Part shown: positions 21,051-29,713 of the stretch, piece after piece
How positions within the stretch are numbered: position 1 is the stretch's first letter
How the letters are laid out: each line of letters begins with the position of its first letter
Assembly (NCBI GenBank): GCA_022711635.1
Contig: JAKLEQ010000012.1
Location: 1 to 32,909, forward strand
Length of the DNA: 32,909 nucleotides
Direction of reading: 5' to 3'
From: Methanoregula sp.
Lineage (GTDB): Archaea; Halobacteriota; Methanomicrobia; Methanomicrobiales; Methanospirillaceae
The notes under the pieces: generated by a model
Databases searched by the model: none
What the model saw: only the letters and a program-made list of their open reading frames with translations
What the model was told of the DNA's origin: nothing
Translations under genes and position numbers: made by a program

Positions 21051-24000
21051 TTGGCTCTCAAGAAGGAGATCACCAAGCAGATCCGGGACCTGCTGCGGCA
21101 GAACCCGGGTGGCCTTTCTATCACTGCCATCGTGCGGCAGATCCCCATCAACCGGAACACTGCCGGGCGGTACCTCGAGAACCTGATGGTCTCCGGGCAG
21201 GTAGAGATGCGCCATTTCGGCATGGCAAAGATTTACAGCCTCGCCCAGCGTGTCCCGCTCTCGGCAATGCTCTCGATCTCTTCAGAGCTCATCATGCTGC
21301 TCGACCGGAGCCGACGGGTCATCTACGCCAACGAGCCCATGCTCGATTTTCTGGACGTGACCCAGCGGGGATTATACGGCAAGGCGATTGAGTATACAGC
21401 CCTCCTGAATGTCTTCGATGAAGAATTCGATGCGCTCAGGAGGAAGGTCCAGGAAGGGATTGCCGGCAAGGAGTGGTCCGGGGAGATCGCAGCGAGAAAC
21501 GGAACGATCATCTTCTCCTGCAGGATCGCACCGGCGGTGTTCGAGGAGGGGCAGCGCGGTGTCTCGATCCTTCTCGAAAATATCACGGAGCGGAAAAAAA
21601 CCGAGAAGGCCATCCGGGAGTCTGAAGAGACCCTCCGATCGGTTGCTGACAACACCCCGGATACCATCCTGCTGACGGATCTTGAAGGGAAGATCCTCTT
21701 TATCAACCACTCGTTTACCATCCCGCCGGAAGAGATCCCCCGCCGCTCGGTCTTCGAGTTCATCCCGGAAAAGTATCACGCCCGGGCGAAGGCCAGTATC
21801 ATGCAGGTTGTCAAAACCGGGAACGTGGCGGTCTACCAGTCCGATCACCGTTTCCCTGGCGGGGAGGTCCGGTATTTCGAGTCCACGATCGGACCGGTCT
21901 TCCACGAAAGCAAGGTTATCGCGCTCGTCATCAACAGCCGCGACATCACCGAGCGCATCCTTTCAGAACAGGATCTCCGCGAGAGCGAGGACCGGTACCG
22001 CTCGCTCGTCGAAGTCTCGCCCGATGCAATCTTCCTCCACCAGGACGGGCAGATCATCTACATGAACCCTGCCGCCAGAAAAATCCTCGAGATCCCGTCT
22101 CTCCCGGCAAGCCTGTCTTCAGCAGTTATCGATCGAATACCGCCCGATATCCGGGAGACCGTACGGGAGAATATCCGGAGCGACCTGAATGGCGAAATGA
22201 CACCCCCGCTCGAGATTCCTTTCCAGCGGCACGATGGCTCATGGATAATTCTCGACGGCAGAGGGGTCGGGACGCTTGTCGGGGGCAGAGCTGCCGTCCA
22301 GGTCACCCTGCGGGACATCACCGAACGGAAGAAGGCGGAAGATGCCGTCCGGGAGAGTAAACGCAGGCTGGTGTCCTCGCAGCATATCGCCCGTCTCGGC
22401 GATGTGACCTGGGACCTGAAGACGGGAAAGGCTACCTGGTCTGAAGGGATGTACAGGCTCCTTGGTTTTGACCCGGCTGAGAGGATCGACGCCGGCCGTG
22501 TCTATCTCATGAACCATCATCCCGATGATCGCGAGCGGGTCAGTGCATGGCTGGATGCAGCAATCAGTTCTCCCGGCGACCGTATCCCCCCGAACGAATA
22601 CCGGATTATCCGTGCCGACGGCGAGGTTCTCACCGTCCACGCCGAGGGGGAGATCCAGCGGGTCGACGGGAAGCCGGCCCGGGTCATGGTAACCATCCAG
22701 GACATCACGGAGCGTAAGGAGGCAGAGGATGCGATCCGGAAGAGCCGGTTCAAGCTTGGCGAAGCCCTCGACCTTGCCCGGATGGCAAACTGGGAGTACG
22801 ATGTCGGCAGAAATGTATTCACCTTCGACGACAGGTTCTATGCACTCTACGGGACGACTGCGGAACGGGAGGGTTCTAACGAGATGTGCCCGGATACCTA
22901 TGTCCGGGAGTTCATCCATCCTGACGACCGGTTCATCATGGAGCCGACCATGCGGGCCGCCCTGACCGCGACCGATCCCGATTATCATGCGGAGGTGGAA
23001 CACCGAATCGTCCGCAGGGACGGCGCGGTACGCCATATCGCCGTGCACATCCGGGTCATCCTTGACAACGAAGGACGGGTAGCAAGGACCTATGGAACGA
23101 ACCAGGACATCACCGTGCGGAAGGAGGCGGAGATCGCGCTGCGGAAAAGCCGCCAGTACCTCGAGGATGCCATGGATACGGCAGACCTCTATACGTGGGA
23201 GTACAACCCCGGGACGGATATGTTCCTGTTCAATGACCGCTTCTTCACATTATTCGGGACAGATGCCGGAATTGAGGATGGCTACACTGTACCTATGGAG
23301 GGGTTCATCCGGACGTATGTCCACCCGGACGACCGTGATGTCCTGTTCGCAGCGCTGAGACGAATCCGGCAGTCTCCCGAATCCCAGTTCGTATCCCGGA
23401 GGGAGGGAAAGATCATCCGCAGGGACGGATGCATCCGGCATGTCCTTGCGCTCACCCGCATCCTCCGGAACCCGGAGAACGGGACGATGTCAGTCCAGGG
23501 CACGCTCCAGGATATCACCGACCAGAAACAGGTTGAAGAGGCGCTGCGGAAGAGCAGGCAGCAGCTTGAGGATGCAATGGGGATGGCAGACCTGTACACG
23601 TGGGAATACGATCCCGCCGCGGACACCTTCCTGTTCAACGACCACCTCTTCCCTCTGTTCGGAACGACCCCTGATCAGGAAGGCGGATACGCAATACCGT
23701 CGGACACGTTTCTCCGGGAGTTCGTTCATCCGGCTGACCGCTCCGATCTTATCCGGGGGGTCGAGAACTCCCTGAAATCGGCCGATCCTCACTATGTGGG
23801 GAGGAACGAGGCCAGGATTATCCGGAAGGACGGTGAGATCCGCCACGTCGTCACGCTTATCCGTGCCCAGAAGGACCCGGAGCGGGAGGCTGTCCTCGTC
23901 CAGGGCACGCTCCAGGATGTCACCCGGCAGAAACGAGCGGAAGCTGCAATCCGCGAGAGCGAGGCGACAGCACGCGCCCTGATCAACGCCCCGACAGACC

Positions 24001-25820
24001 GGATCATCCTTACAGATAACGCCGGGAGAATTTTAGATCTCAACGAAGCGGCAGCACAGAGCCTTGGGAAGAAACGCGATGAGATCATGGGGAAACCCCC
24101 GTCAGCCGTTCTTTCTCCGGCAAGTGCCGCCGTCAGGATGCCCAGGATGATGGACGTCATCGCGACCGGAAAAGCGGCCCGGTTCATTGATGAACGCGAG
24201 GGAATCTGGTTCGACAATGTCATTTATCCGGTCTTCAATCCGCAGGGGGAGGTCGCACGCCTTGCCATTGTCGCCCGCGATATCACGGATCAGAAACACG
24301 CGGAGGCCGCACTCCGGGAGAGCGAAAGCAGGTACCGCACCCTCGCCGAAGCCTCACAGGATATCATCTTCCTCATCGGCCAGGATGACACCGTGGAATA
24401 CGTCAACAGCTATGCCGCCGCCATGCTGGGAATTCCTGCCGGGCAGATTATCGGCAGGAATCGCTCGTCCTTCTTTAAGGGGGAACTGGGAGAACGGCAG
24501 GCACGGGGACTGCGCCGGGTGTTCGAGACGGGAAAAGCGGGGAGGAGCGAGGGGCCGATGGAGATGTCCGGGAGCCTGCACTGGTTCGATCACTTCCTCA
24601 TGCCGATAACCGATGCGAATGGAAAGGTCACCGCCGTCCTGGGGGTCTCGCGTGACATCACGGACCGCAGGAGCACCGAAAAGGCACTTGCGGAGAGCGA
24701 GGACCGCTACCGTGACCTCATCACGACCACCCCGGATATCATCTGGGAAGCGGATACTGAGCGGCGTCTTGTCTATGTCAGCCCGGCGGTTGAACAGATC
24801 CTCGGGTATCGCCCGGAAGAGTTGATCGGCCGCTCTCCGTTCGAATTCTTCGATCCGGAGGTCCGGGCCCGGAGCCAGGGTGCATTCGACAATGTCGTCA
24901 GGATGAATGCGCCACTCATCGTGTTTGATTCCCGCTGGCTGCATAAGGACGGCCACGTGGTGATCCTCGAGACCCGGGCACGGCCGATCATCCGGGGCGA
25001 TGGTTCTTTTGCAGGATTCCGGGGGATTGACCGGGATGTCACCGAACAACGGAAGACTGAGGGGGCACTTGCCGAGAGCGAGAAGCGTTTCCGGGATCTT
25101 GCCGAACTGCTCCCCCAGAATGTCTGGGAATGTTCTATCGATGGGAAACTGACGTTTGCCAACCGCTACAGTTTCGAGATGTACCGGTACGCACCGGAGG
25201 ATATACAGAAGGGATTGTATATCTGGCAGATGATACACCCCGACGACCGGGAGCGGGTGATGGGGGATTTTATTGAGGCACTGAAACATCCCCCGGAGGA
25301 TTTTCCGACGCACCATGAATATACCGCAGTACGCAGCGACGGGAGCACCTTCCCGGTCATCATGTACCATGTCCCCGTTATCAGCGACAACACGATCACG
25401 GGGATGCGGGGTATCGGGATCGATCTCACCGGGCGCAGGCAGATGGAAGAGGCGCTGATGGAGACGATCCGTGCCTACCGGCTGCTTGCCGAGACTTCGG
25501 TCGACATCATTACGCGGATCAGGGCGGATGGCACCTGCATCTATGCTTCACCGGCAGTACGGGGGGTTCTCGGCTTCGAACCGGAAGAGGTTGTGGGGCT
25601 GTCGGCACTGGAATATGTCCACCCGGACGATCTCGGCCATGTGATGGAGATGATCGCAGCGTTCAGCTCCAACGGAAACAAGACCGGGACCGACACGTTC
25701 CGCATACGGCATAAGGACGGCTCGTATATACGGTTTGAAGCAACCATCCGTGCAACCCGCGACGAGGGGGGGCAGATTGCAGAGTTCACGCTGGTCTGCC
25801 GTTCCGTCGGCACAGACTAG
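21051..25820 (+). CDS. Giant multi-PAS protein with N-terminal winged helix
   Basis: The 1589-residue cytoplasmic protein starts with a winged helix-turn-helix (about 1-64: KQIRDLLRQNPGGLSITAIVRQIPINRNTAGRYLENLMVSG shortened: ITAIVRQIPINRNTAGRYL is the HTH). It then runs through twelve PAS domains beginning near residues 69, 197, 318, 442, 570, 706, 841, 975, 1097, 1222, 1350 and 1478. Each ends in a PAC segment (DITERK-, DITDQK- or DVTEQR-like) and a short helical linker (AxRESExRYR). There are no membrane segments and no HisKA, HATPase, GAF or receiver domain; it stops at the end of the last PAS. It is therefore best read as a one-component DNA-binding sensor or signalling scaffold, not a kinase. 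PAS 6 and 7 are close duplicates. TTG 21051 is the only start that keeps the winged helix; the next in-frame ATG would remove it. Confidence 0.85.
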   Translation: MALKKEITKQIRDLLRQNPGGLSITAIVRQIPINRNTAGRYLENLMVSGQVEMRHFGMAKIYSLAQRVPLSAMLSISSELIMLLDRSRRVIYANEPMLDFLDVTQRGLYGKAIEYTALLNVFDEEFDALRRKVQEGIAGKEWSGEIAARNGTIIFSCRIAPAVFEEGQRGVSILLENITERKKTEKAIRESEETLRSVADNTPDTILLTDLEGKILFINHSFTIPPEEIPRRSVFEFIPEKYHARAKASIMQVVKTGNVAVYQSDHRFPGGEVRYFESTIGPVFHESKVIALVINSRDITERILSEQDLRESEDRYRSLVEVSPDAIFLHQDGQIIYMNPAARKILEIPSLPASLSSAVIDRIPPDIRETVRENIRSDLNGEMTPPLEIPFQRHDGSWIILDGRGVGTLVGGRAAVQVTLRDITERKKAEDAVRESKRRLVSSQHIARLGDVTWDLKTGKATWSEGMYRLLGFDPAERIDAGRVYLMNHHPDDRERVSAWLDAAISSPGDRIPPNEYRIIRADGEVLTVHAEGEIQRVDGKPARVMVTIQDITERKEAEDAIRKSRFKLGEALDLARMANWEYDVGRNVFTFDDRFYALYGTTAEREGSNEMCPDTYVREFIHPDDRFIMEPTMRAALTATDPDYHAEVEHRIVRRDGAVRHIAVHIRVILDNEGRVARTYGTNQDITVRKEAEIALRKSRQYLEDAMDTADLYTWEYNPGTDMFLFNDRFFTLFGTDAGIEDGYTVPMEGFIRTYVHPDDRDVLFAALRRIRQSPESQFVSRREGKIIRRDGCIRHVLALTRILRNPENGTMSVQGTLQDITDQKQVEEALRKSRQQLEDAMGMADLYTWEYDPAADTFLFNDHLFPLFGTTPDQEGGYAIPSDTFLREFVHPADRSDLIRGVENSLKSADPHYVGRNEARIIRKDGEIRHVVTLIRAQKDPEREAVLVQGTLQDVTRQKRAEAAIRESEATARALINAPTDRIILTDNAGRILDLNEAAAQSLGKKRDEIMGKPPSAVLSPASAAVRMPRMMDVIATGKAARFIDEREGIWFDNVIYPVFNPQGEVARLAIVARDITDQKHAEAALRESESRYRTLAEASQDIIFLIGQDDTVEYVNSYAAAMLGIPAGQIIGRNRSSFFKGELGERQARGLRRVFETGKAGRSEGPMEMSGSLHWFDHFLMPITDANGKVTAVLGVSRDITDRRSTEKALAESEDRYRDLITTTPDIIWEADTERRLVYVSPAVEQILGYRPEELIGRSPFEFFDPEVRARSQGAFDNVVRMNAPLIVFDSRWLHKDGHVVILETRARPIIRGDGSFAGFRGIDRDVTEQRKTEGALAESEKRFRDLAELLPQNVWECSIDGKLTFANRYSFEMYRYAPEDIQKGLYIWQMIHPDDRERVMGDFIEALKHPPEDFPTHHEYTAVRSDGSTFPVIMYHVPVISDNTITGMRGIGIDLTGRRQMEEALMETIRAYRLLAETSVDIITRIRADGTCIYASPAVRGVLGFEPEEVVGLSALEYVHPDDLGHVMEMIAAFSSNGNKTGTDTFRIRHKDGSYIRFEATIRATRDEGGQIAEFTLVCRSVGTD

Positions 25821-26067: not shown

Positions 26068-26754
26068 TCACCCAAACCACGACTTCTGCGGCCGGAGCGG
26101 GCAGATGAGCTCCCCGCCATCGTTCGCCGGGTTGTTCGCTGCCGGAGAGACCGGGTATGCAGTCATCTCCTCCGCCGGGTAGGGGGCGAGCAGTTCGCGG
26201 AGCTCGCCTGCCGCAGGGGGGGACGGGGAGAGCCACCGCTGCTCGTCTTCCCGGCGGAGGATCGCGGGCATCCGGTTATGGAGCGGCCTGACAAGACCGT
26301 TCGGCTCTGTCGTAATGATCGTATAGGTCGCAACCATCTTTCCGGAAGCGTCCTGCCACCTATCACAGAGCCCCGCGATCCCGAAGAGTGCCTTGTCCCG
26401 GATATGGATGAACTGCGGCTTTCGGCTGCCGCCATCTTTTTTCCACTCGTAGAACCCGTTGGCGGGAACGATGCAGCGGTTGCTGGCGAGGAGTCCCGCA
26501 AAGACCGGTTTCTCCGCGAGCGACTCCGCCCGTGCATTGATTGGTCTTGGTGTGGACGGGTTACCCGAAAGCCGGTACGGGACAAGCCCCCACTCCATCA
26601 TCCGGAGCCGGTTGCCCCCCTGCTCACGGATGACGACGGGATTCTCTGTTCCCGGCGCGATGTTGAAATGGGACCGGATCCCGAGCATCGGGTCGATGAT
26701 GAGAAAACGCCCCCCGAGGTCATCGATTCCCCACAGCGCGTACCTGCCGCACAT
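26068..26754 (-). CDS. SRAP-domain protein (HMCES/YedK type)
   Basis: SRAP proteins form a thiazolidine DNA-protein crosslink with abasic sites in single-stranded DNA, shielding them from error-prone processing; bacterial members are often found with SOS and translesion genes. The 228-residue product has all catalytic landmarks. Cys2 is exposed after methionine removal (MCGRYALW), with the asparagine in INARAES, the glutamate in NGFYEWKK and the histidine in LHNRMPAIL. An open frame extends 12 codons upstream, but the N-terminal cysteine fixes the start at ATG 26754. It is divergent from the RecA-like/small protein/PolB2 cassette with 134 bp between, suggesting a shared DNA-damage function. 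The family call is secure; the pathway link is inference. Confidence 0.95.
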   Translation of the reverse strand: MCGRYALWGIDDLGGRFLIIDPMLGIRSHFNIAPGTENPVVIREQGGNRLRMMEWGLVPYRLSGNPSTPRPINARAESLAEKPVFAGLLASNRCIVPANGFYEWKKDGGSRKPQFIHIRDKALFGIAGLCDRWQDASGKMVATYTIITTEPNGLVRPLHNRMPAILRREDEQRWLSPSPPAAGELRELLAPYPAEEMTAYPVSPAANNPANDGGELICPLRPQKSWFG

Positions 26755-26888
26755 GGTACCTGAAACCCTGTCGGTCGTGCCATACTTCAACTTTTCTCTT
26801 CGTTCCTGCAGGCCTCACGTCGCACCGACACTTTCGCGCCGCCCGTTCCCTGAGCCTAATATCCCGGGGCATGAGAGGATCCGGGCGC
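26755..26888. promoter_or_regulatory. Divergent promoter region of the SRAP gene and PolB2 cassette
   Basis: The 134 bp separate the SRAP start from the first cassette gene. On the plus side a taatatc element (about 26857-26863) lies about 28 nt before ATG 26889. The minus side has only a weak TATA-like gaagtatgg. I see no convincing long palindrome that would mark a damage-responsive operator. Confidence 0.35.
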
Positions 26889-27500
26889 ATGGAACTCGAT
26901 CTCTGTCCGTCCGTCACCCTGCAGACCGGCACGTTCAGTGCAGTGACCGCCCCGGCCGAAACGATCACGGGTGCCATCAACGCGAACGCGGACCTGCAGC
27001 GGTTCATGTTCCTCTTCGTATCCGGCAACTATTCCCGGATCATGAGCGACATCCACCGGACCTCCGGAAATTTCGAGGTCCGTCGGGCGTGTACGGCCCT
27101 CCAGCTCGTAACCATCCTTTCCGGGGCGTACCATTCCATCATCCTGGTCGAGCACGACCCGACGCTCTACGAGGGGATCGGGAAGAGTACCATCGTGCCG
27201 CAGGTGACCGAATCCCTGCGCTCCGCTGCGCGGGACGCACTGGTGGTCCTCTACACCCCCGCGGGGGATTTCACCTTCCACACCCTCGCGCGGAAAGCGG
27301 ACCGGGTCGTTATCATCGCGCCGGTCACCCGGAACAGCGCCTCCGGCATGGCGGGGCAATGGGCCGAGAGGGACCGTATGTTCCGGCGCCAGAAGGCCCT
27401 GGAGGAATTTCATGGGACGCAGTATTATGAGCAGCAGGATGGCAGTCAAGGATCTCTCCCGGCGGTGGTCGCAGGCGACGCGGGCGCTCCGGGCCGATGA
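26889..27500 (+). CDS. Uncharacterised protein of a PolB2 cassette, possibly RecA/ImuA-like
   Basis: The 203-residue protein is not one I can identify with certainty. Its central part alternates predicted strands and helices: RFMFLFVSG (about 38-46), YHSIILVEHDP (81-91), DALVVLYTP (116-124), ADRVVIIAP (137-145). The hydrophobic strand ending in EHD resembles a Walker B strand, and the layout resembles an inactivated RecA/ImuA-like core, but no Walker A loop is present. The C-terminal about 40 residues are polar and probably disordered. ATG 26889 is preferred: a TATA-like taatatc is about 28 nt upstream, and agagga lies about 9 nt before it. ATG 26871 is the alternative. It overlaps the next gene by 89 bp. 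By position it is probably a partner of the polymerase; the ImuA-like reading is an inference. Confidence 0.6.
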   Translation: MELDLCPSVTLQTGTFSAVTAPAETITGAINANADLQRFMFLFVSGNYSRIMSDIHRTSGNFEVRRACTALQLVTILSGAYHSIILVEHDPTLYEGIGKSTIVPQVTESLRSAARDALVVLYTPAGDFTFHTLARKADRVVIIAPVTRNSASGMAGQWAERDRMFRRQKALEEFHGTQYYEQQDGSQGSLPAVVAGDAGAPGR

Positions 27501-27684
27501 GCAGAAGTATGGCAGCGAGATCGTGCGGATGGTCCAGCAGCACAGCAGCGAGGGCTTCTGCGCCTTCGACGACCCCCTGGAGTCCGCGGTCTTCTCGGTG
27601 CTTGTCGAGATCCTGAAGGAGCGTGACCGGCATGACCGGTGCAGCAGGTGCAGCCGGGATGACCGGGAGCATGTGGATCCTTGA
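27412..27684 (+). CDS. Small helical protein of the PolB2 cassette
   Basis: The 90-residue protein is not recognised. It looks mostly helical, with a basic N-terminal half (VKDLSRRWSQATRALRADEQKYGSEIVRMVQQ), a conserved-looking acidic/hydrophobic stretch (FDDPLESAVFSVLVEILKE) and a charged tail with two cysteines. The start is decided by the sequence: ggagga (27401-27406) stands five bases before ATG 27412. This makes an unusually long 89-bp overlap with the gene upstream. ATGs at 27427 and 27439 are weaker alternatives. Its last 53 bases overlap the polymerase start, so the three genes form one translationally coupled unit. It may be a small DNA-binding or adaptor subunit; this is inferred from context only. 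Confidence 0.6.
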   Translation: MGRSIMSSRMAVKDLSRRWSQATRALRADEQKYGSEIVRMVQQHSSEGFCAFDDPLESAVFSVLVEILKERDRHDRCSRCSRDDREHVDP

Positions 27685-29713
27685 CTCGGTCGCCCGGGAC
27701 GGTTTCATCGACCTCTGGGTGAAGGAAGCATCCGGGGTGCGGCGGGTCCGCGAGGAGTACCGCCCGCCGTTCTTCGCCCATTTTGCCGACCCGCACCTCC
27801 ACCGGGACCTGATCGGGACGCTGGAGGAAACGTTCGGGGCGACGGAGTGCCGGTTTGCAACCATCTTCGGGGAACTGCCGGGGTACGCCATCGCCGCCGA
27901 CCGGCGGGTTGCGGAGCGGATTGAGGAGCAGGCGGCGTTCGCTGTCGACCTGTTCAACGTGGACACCCGGCGCGACCAGCAGTACCTGGCGGAGCGGGGG
28001 ATCTTCCCCTGCGCGGATCCCGGGGACCTCCGTTTCTCCCCGGGGGTTGCGCACTCCCTCCGGCAGATGGAGATCCGTATCCGGGGGAACCCCGCAGCCG
28101 GCCACGGGATCCGGGAGATCGCGGTCGCCTGCGAGGGCCGGAGCGAACGCATGTGCGGGGGCGAACGGGAGATGATCGCGGATCTCTCCTCGCTCATCGG
28201 ATCCTGCGATCCCGATGTTGTCCTCTGCCCGGATGCCGATACCCGGATGCCACGCATCGTCGCACAGGCCCGGAAGGAGGGGATCCCGTTCCCCCTCAGC
28301 CGGACCGGGCGGTACCGGAGCATGAACTCCCGGTCCTACTGGAGCTACGGGGGGATGGAGCACAAAGAGGGCGCCATGATCCCGGACGGCAGGATCCTGA
28401 TCGACACCGGGCAGAGCTTCATGTACCAGGAGGGGGGTCTTCCGGGGATCCTCATCGGTGCCCGGCTGAGCGGGCTCTCTCCCAATCTCGCGAGCCGGTT
28501 CACGCCGGGGACGCTGATCAGCAGCTACGAGGTGTACGAGGCGCTTTCCCGCCGCATCACCGTCCCGTTCCGGAAGGACGATGCCGAGAAGGTGCGGCAG
28601 TTCGCCGGCCTGAGGGAGATGGACCGGGGCGGGATGATGTTCCAGCCCCGGCCCAGCGTGTACGAACAGGTGTACGAGATCGACTTCACCTCACTGTACC
28701 CGAGCATCATCGTGCACGGCAACCTCTCCCCAGAGACGATCGGGGATCCGTCCCGCCCCGGCCCCCGGGGCTTTCTCGCAGACGTCCTCGATCCGCTCCT
28801 TACGATGCGGATCGGGACCAAAGCGCAGAAGAAGACGGACCCTTCCTGCGCGGGGATTGACTCCATCCTGAAGTGGATGCTCGTCACCTGCTTCGGGTAC
28901 ACAGGGTACCGGAACGCGAAGTTCGGGCGGATCGAGGTGCACGAGGCGATCACCGGGAAGGCCCGGGAGATCCTGCTCCTGACCAAGGAGACCGCGGAGG
29001 CGATGGGTTTTTCTGTCCTGCACGGGATCGTCGACTGCCTCTGGGTGCAGGGATCGCCCATCGCGGCGCTGAAGGATCGCGTGGAGCGGGAGACAGGGCT
29101 CCCGACCGAGGTCGACACCTATTCGTGGATCGCCTTCCTCCCGATGGCGGACGGGTACTTCGGCGCCTACAACCGGTACTACGGCCGGCTTTCCGACGGG
29201 AGCATCAAAGTCAGGGGGATCGCCGCCCGCCGGCACGACACCCCGGACTACGTCCGGAGGATGCAGGAGGAGATGCTGACGGCGATGAGCCGGGTGGCAA
29301 CGCACGCGGGACTCCGGGCGCTGGAAGGAACGGTGATGGAGATCTACCGGCGATACTACGATGGTGTCGCGAACGCCGGGCCCGAAGAGTTCGCCGTCAG
29401 CCGCCGGATCAGCAAGCTCACCTATACCCACCGCTGCCTCGAGGCGTCCGCGGTGCAGGAGTACCGGGCCCGGGGCATGAATGTCGCGCCGGGCATGAAG
29501 ATCGAGTACGTTGTCCGGGACGCGAAGAAGTACCTCGTCGATCCCTCAGGCGAGGCGTCCTGCATCGACGCCGCCTACTACCGTACCCTGCTCGACCGGG
29601 CGTGGGAGGAGATCGCGTTTGCGGTCGGAAGGCCGGGGTTGAGATGCGGAGGGCCGGTGTGCGGGAGTTTTTCGGGTGCGTATACGCCGTACCATATCGG
29701 CAGTTCGCAATAA
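27632..29713 (+). CDS. polB2: B-family DNA polymerase, PolB2 type, exonuclease-deficient
   Basis: The 693-residue protein is a shortened family B polymerase. Motif A is canonical ([10 protein letters not shown], Asp351). Motif B is K414..[14 protein letters not shown]. Motif C reads HGIVDCLWV instead of YGDTDSIYV: the first Asp is Ile466 and the second, metal-binding Asp468 remains. The N-terminal exonuclease region has lost its acidic motifs: [10 protein letters not shown] stands where FDIET is expected, and [14 protein letters not shown] where the NGxNFD block belongs. Archaeal PolB2 (Sulfolobus Dpo2) shows this pattern and has been tied to damage-induced, error-prone synthesis. aaggag (27616-27621) is ten bases before ATG 27632; starts at 27623 (GTG), 27659 or 27671 (MWILDSV) are possible, as the first codons are low-complexity. 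It overlaps the small gene upstream by 53 bp. Confidence 0.9.

Follow-up and report, generated by a model that had tools for sequence, protein, structure and literature searches.

Genes and features of the locus

This study analyzed a 32,909-nt stretch of DNA from Methanoregula sp. (referred to as the window), in which four genes with open frames were found between positions 26068 and 29713. A SRAP gene occupies the reverse strand, and iRadA, PPB2, and PolB2 follow one another in this order on the forward strand. The features are as follows.

26068..26754, reverse strand: SRAP (HMCES/YedK-type) abasic-site protein, 228 aa, assigned by PF02586 and catalytic residues
26755..26888, no strand: intergenic region shared by the divergent SRAP and iRadA genes, read from the sequence
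26830..26842, forward strand: candidate damage-response box ACTTTCGCGCCGC, located 59 nt ahead of where iRadA starts
26855..26863, forward strand: TATA-like element CCTAATATC of the iRadA operon, assigned by position
26889..27500, forward strand: iRadA, inactivated RadA/Rad51 paralogue, 203 aa, assigned by predicted fold and relatives
27390..27410, forward strand: PCNA-binding-like motif QKALEEF of iRadA, in which Q168 and L171 do not vary across 47 sequences
27412..27684, forward strand: PPB2 (arCOG07300-type), 90 aa, with an MGRS N-terminal arm, from the alignment of relatives
27671..29713, forward strand: PolB2 (Dpo2-type) B-family polymerase, 680 aa, starting with MWILDS, assigned by NF004416

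iRadA, PPB2, and PolB2 are the proteins of 203, 90, and 680 residues, respectively, and their order matches that of the published archaeal PolB2 mutasome. Makarova et al. (2014; PMC4104785) described an operon in which PolB2 occurs with arCOG07300 and an inactivated RadA; Timinskas et al. (2025; PMC11791011) name PolB2, iRadA, and PPB2, model them as a heteropentamer, and report SRAP to be enriched to some degree near polB2. The cassette is therefore a rediscovery of a known system, and the initial annotation, which had proposed an archaeal mutasome here, was right on a point already in print. It had also placed the 203-residue protein in the role of ImuA. The RecA-superfamily fold of this protein agrees with that idea, but the role is one of analogy and not kinship because published work identifies the protein as an inactivated paralogue of RadA and neither a Y-family ImuB nor DnaE2 is involved. 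The cassette resembles the bacterial ImuA-ImuB-DnaE2 system in combining a polymerase with a RecA-type protein under similar logic; nevertheless, its sole polymerase belongs to the B family, with no Y-family ImuB and no C-family DnaE2, and the two are not homologous as systems. Membership in the ImuA/ImuB/DnaE2 group was thus rejected.

The SRAP protein matched PF02586 over the entire profile (E=8.9e-64) and was related to PDB entry 2f20 (E=8.3e-35). Cys2 directly follows Met1, and N73, E103, and H159 lie within the usual motifs of SRAP/HMCES proteins. The SRAP and iRadA genes indeed stand back to back, their start codons being 134 nt apart. On the other side of SRAP, a protein of 1589 residues with many PAS-like repeats (21051-25820) ends approximately 250 nt before the SRAP 3' end.

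Pfam AAA matches for iRadA and PPB2 fell below the cut-off. Because comparing the iRadA profile with PDB sequences yielded chance matches only, we turned to a fold search. The AlphaFold model of iRadA (pLDDT 83.9, pTM 0.74) matched RecA, RadA, Rad51, and KaiC with E values of 3e-5 to 1e-3 and modest TM-scores of approximately 0.4-0.5, consistent with a RecA-superfamily fold. No Walker A motif (GxxxxGK[TS]) was found in the iRadA sequence of the window, and the protein accordingly combines a RadA/RecA fold with a lack of ATPase motifs. Clamp motifs are reported in iRadA in PMC11791011, and not every mutasome has one in iRadA or PolB2; iRadA of relatives ends approximately with Q-x-T-L-E-x-x, and the window reads QKALEEF at this site, followed by a run-on tail of 29 residues (175-203), whereas relatives end near residue 174.

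This tail accounts for the 89-nt overlap of iRadA with PPB2, which the initial annotation had described. The overlap is present in the sequence but is peculiar to the window copy, because the iRadA stop of most relatives lies at or just ahead of the PPB2 start, often as TGATG. The long overlap, derived from a lost stop, also sets the window apart from the published mutasome. The stop codon of relatives is missing at the PPB2 junction (27405-27420), either naturally or through an assembly error; placed behind the PCNA-like motif, the tail could impair iRadA or reflect such an error.

The N-terminal arm of PPB2 reads MGRS in the window and MGR[ST] in nearly all relatives, and the proposal that the small protein acts as an adaptor is consistent with the published PPB2 model. 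PolB2 scored 899 bits against NF004416 (cut-off 516), with the match beginning at residue 1. Alignment revealed an intact motif A and a motif C of IVD, the usual IxD active site of PolB2-type polymerases, in which the first Asp of DxD is substituted. Pfam detected no exonuclease domain, in agreement with the earlier description of the polymerase as exonuclease-less. A 53-nt overlap between PPB2 and PolB2 had also been claimed; because the NF004416 match begins at MWILDS (27671), the real overlap is 14 nt (ATGTGGATCCTTGA), as in 28 of 33 relatives examined. Thus, the four genes, the 89-nt overlap, and the back-to-back SRAP of the initial annotation stood and the 53-nt overlap did not; of its interpretation, the mutasome reading was retained, the ImuA role became one of analogy, and membership of SRAP was weakened.

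The promoter box upstream of iRadA and radA

The sequence ACTTTCGCGCCGC at 26830-26842 is the only box match within the window. The box has the consensus ACTTTCRCnCC and lies approximately 17 nt ahead of a TATA-like site. Its core, ACTTTC[AG]C, was found in 77 of 88 iRadA promoters of Methanomicrobiales operons (window included), and the exact core was missing from the other 11. Counting of 8-mers in the same upstream regions revealed ACTTTCAC in 50 of 88 (0.85 expected), spread over 15 groups, and ACTTTCGC in 27 of 88. The core is mostly positioned 54-60 nt before the iRadA start codon, and the gap between box and TATA is most often 17 nt at iRadA and 17-18 nt at radA. At Methanothrix-type loci, the core occurred 54-61 nt ahead of iRadA in 9 of 12 cases; it was not found upstream of PolB2 at the nine haloarchaeal PolB2 loci sampled. 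A sigma-70 promoter scan was set aside as inapplicable to archaea.

The same box marks radA. The core ACTTTC[AG][CT] was present in all 41 anchored radA upstream regions, a count that leaves out 18 further loci which the search pattern could not anchor, compared with 3.3% of random windows; the 41 came from genomes with and without PolB2. Just 8 of 596 other promoters carried it. Of these eight, three were PolB2 genes or fragments and one was iRadA; two more resembled iRadA paralogues as judged by eye, and the last two were a SRAP gene and an unrelated gene. Six of the eight therefore appear to be PolB2-system genes.

Related elements have been described in other archaea. The UV-B-induced genes radA1, top6B, vng17, and vng280 of Halobacterium share the motif TTTCACTTTCA, which was also noted in the radA promoter of Methanospirillum (PMC2556686; we cite Boubriak et al. 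as the literature for this box). The box at radA has therefore been described before; that the PolB2 operon also carries it looks new, and a literature search, itself incomplete, returned no earlier description of the box there or at the other genes listed below. The element resembles the Halobacterium motif in that the radA promoter has the core CACTTTCA upstream of TATA and approximately 50 nt before the start codon, and differs in being followed by a C-rich stretch, in allowing either A or G at one position, and in occurring at the PolB2 operon and at RPA, Mre11, and exonuclease genes. The upsE promoter of Sulfolobus acidocaldarius requires the hexamer ACTTTC ahead of its BRE (PMC5817253), and Sulfolobus Orc1-2 binds the DDRE, ANTTTC (PMC9738581). 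Like these elements, the box here places ACTTTC ahead of BRE/TATA in damage genes, but it is longer, and none was found before the Orc1/Cdc6 genes examined. Orc1/Cdc6 was considered as a box-bearing regulator and rejected, since no convincing box preceded 30 orc loci (for some of which the longest-ORF frame was wrong).

Proposed activation of the cassette and the place of SRAP

The box is shared with radA and has been connected with UV-induced genes of other archaea; the cassette is therefore probably switched on by DNA damage, and the sequence pattern suggests that it belongs to a radA-type damage regulon. The earlier reading of the cassette as damage-inducible thereby gains support. Sulfolobales PolB2 operons are damage-induced according to work cited in PMC11791011, and the radA-shared box is a point of difference from the mutasome as set out in the available part of that paper, where it is not described. 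In the model that we favor, with a probability of roughly 0.8, the cassette is a Methanomicrobiales member of the known PolB2 mutasome, activated by damage through the box, with SRAP as an optional neighbor. For this organism, we infer that DNA damage would lead an activator to bind the ACTTTCRC box upstream of TATA, and that iRadA-PPB2-PolB2 would then be expressed along with radA and further repair genes. By analogy with published work on relatives, iRadA and a trimer of PPB2 would hold PolB2 in place, and the C-terminal motif of iRadA would link it to PCNA. When forks stall, PolB2 would extend ends that are damaged or mispaired, an activity reported for Sulfolobus Dpo2 in work cited in PMC11791011, at the price of mutations. 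SRAP may be co-induced through the common intergenic region and would cap abasic sites.

The likeness to the published mutasome extends from gene order, the inactive RecA-type fold, the MGR[ST] arm, the IxD site, and the D(K/R) motif to the SRAP neighbor, and we investigated this neighbor in 232 genomes of Methanomicrobiales. PolB2 was present in 130 genomes, SRAP in 137, and both in 121. SRAP lay less than 5 kb from PolB2 in 19 of the 121, compared with approximately 0.5 expected under random placement, indicating that adjacency exceeds chance. In the window and genus g11, where most of these cases fall, the SRAP gene is divergent and precedes PolB2 by approximately 0.9 kb; in family f6 it follows PolB2 on the same strand. 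Among near-complete genomes of the order, SRAP occurred in 75 of 77 with PolB2 versus 7 of 58 without it, a contrast inflated by relatedness; the same trend was observed within one family (14/14 versus 4/13). Outside the order, SRAP was present in 55 of 56 PolB2 genomes of SRAP-rich families and in 0 of 28 of SRAP-free families; SRAP is therefore dispensable for the mutasome. The window branches next to the g11/g1 clade in the PolB2 tree, and its SRAP clusters with two divergent g11 SRAPs in the SRAP tree.

Conservation of the SRAP-cassette neighborhood, which the initial annotation had proposed to survey, was found in part: the divergent arrangement recurs in about a dozen relatives of the window, but in the window's own genus all seven remaining members have SRAP on another contig or far off. 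The box core preceded only 4 of 66 separate (non-adjacent) SRAP genes, and at least one of these four (in G187) is in fact the divergent iRadA promoter, with a contig end separating the polymerase. On this basis, SRAP was rejected as a regulon member, and its absence from many PolB2 genomes outside the order, together with the neighborhood not being kept in the genus, led us to reject it as a fixed partner. The claim that SRAP is part of the cassette is weak despite the strong co-occurrence with PolB2 in Methanomicrobiales; SRAP is a loose partner and an optional neighbor.

In line with the initial annotation, SRAP might instead be a true functional subunit that protects abasic sites met by PolB2; the adjacency in two arrangements, the excess of SRAP in PolB2 genomes, and the SRAP enrichment reported in PMC11791011 all argue for it. 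We nevertheless regard such a subunit as unlikely, because all 28 PolB2 genomes of the SRAP-free families dispense with it, 62 of the 66 separate SRAP genes lack the box, adjacency switches at least six times on the SRAP tree of two related genera, and the co-occurrence partly reflects common ancestry.

Slightly less likely again is that the box acts constitutively, as an upstream activator for genes of replication and recombination, and that the cassette is expressed always or with growth. Both radA and RPA are also housekeeping genes, as this explanation would have it; however, the same core marks the UV-induced genes of Halobacterium (PMC2556686) and is required by UV-inducible promoters of Sulfolobus (PMC5817253), and it is rare in other promoters. 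The 29-residue tail that runs on into PPB2 might instead indicate a decaying cassette, the lost iRadA stop being a loss of function. This we consider very improbable, given that all three frames are open and that the catalytic and interaction motifs and the box are retained.

Other genes carrying the box

The wider regulon was examined by pattern searches. A strict pattern of box and TATA gave 27 matches in ten genomes, compared with 2 for the reversed control, and the genes found besides iRadA included radA in two genomes. A looser 13-mer gave 91 sites in nine genomes versus 43 for the reversed control, so that about half of its sites are background; at only about twice the control frequency, single matches outside radA and PolB2 are uncertain. 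The box was found upstream of RPA (13-mer scan) and of an RNase-H-like exonuclease (RNase_H_2) in three genomes each, of a radical-SAM/HhH protein in two, and of Mre11 in one. An orphan protein of approximately 136-143 residues, without a match in Pfam or NCBIfam, carried it in at least eight genomes, including that of the window (L393 [G000:C112], L404, L454, L462, L479, L314, L327, and L310).

We find it reasonably probable that Methanomicrobiales and Methanothrix-type archaea possess an SOS-like regulon under one box, which would comprise radA, the PolB2 mutasome, RPA, Mre11, the RNase-H-like exonuclease, the radical-SAM/HhH protein, the orphan of approximately 136 residues, and some IS605-type transposons, with a core common to the UV elements of haloarchaea and Sulfolobus. 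Such a regulon would bear on the question of how mutagenic repair is switched on in euryarchaea that lack LexA, and one conserved box at radA and the PolB2 operon provides defined target genes and a defined site for seeking the regulator.

Several further loci were observed. In G046, a genome without PolB2, the box precedes IS605-type OrfB/TnpB-like genes (L464, L476, L491, L493, L495, and L498), which recall the UV-induced transposase of Halobacterium. At L489 (position 4378) and L490 (position 2576), box and TATA are followed by no clear ORF and then by a putative ion-transport operon; an Rfam search of the box-bearing loci without an ORF returned no match. At L407 (G157:C1:416656), the box stands before an apparent second PPB2-like locus, separate from the PolB2 operon of that genome. 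SemiSWEET-like membrane protein genes carry the box in two genomes (L481 and L484).
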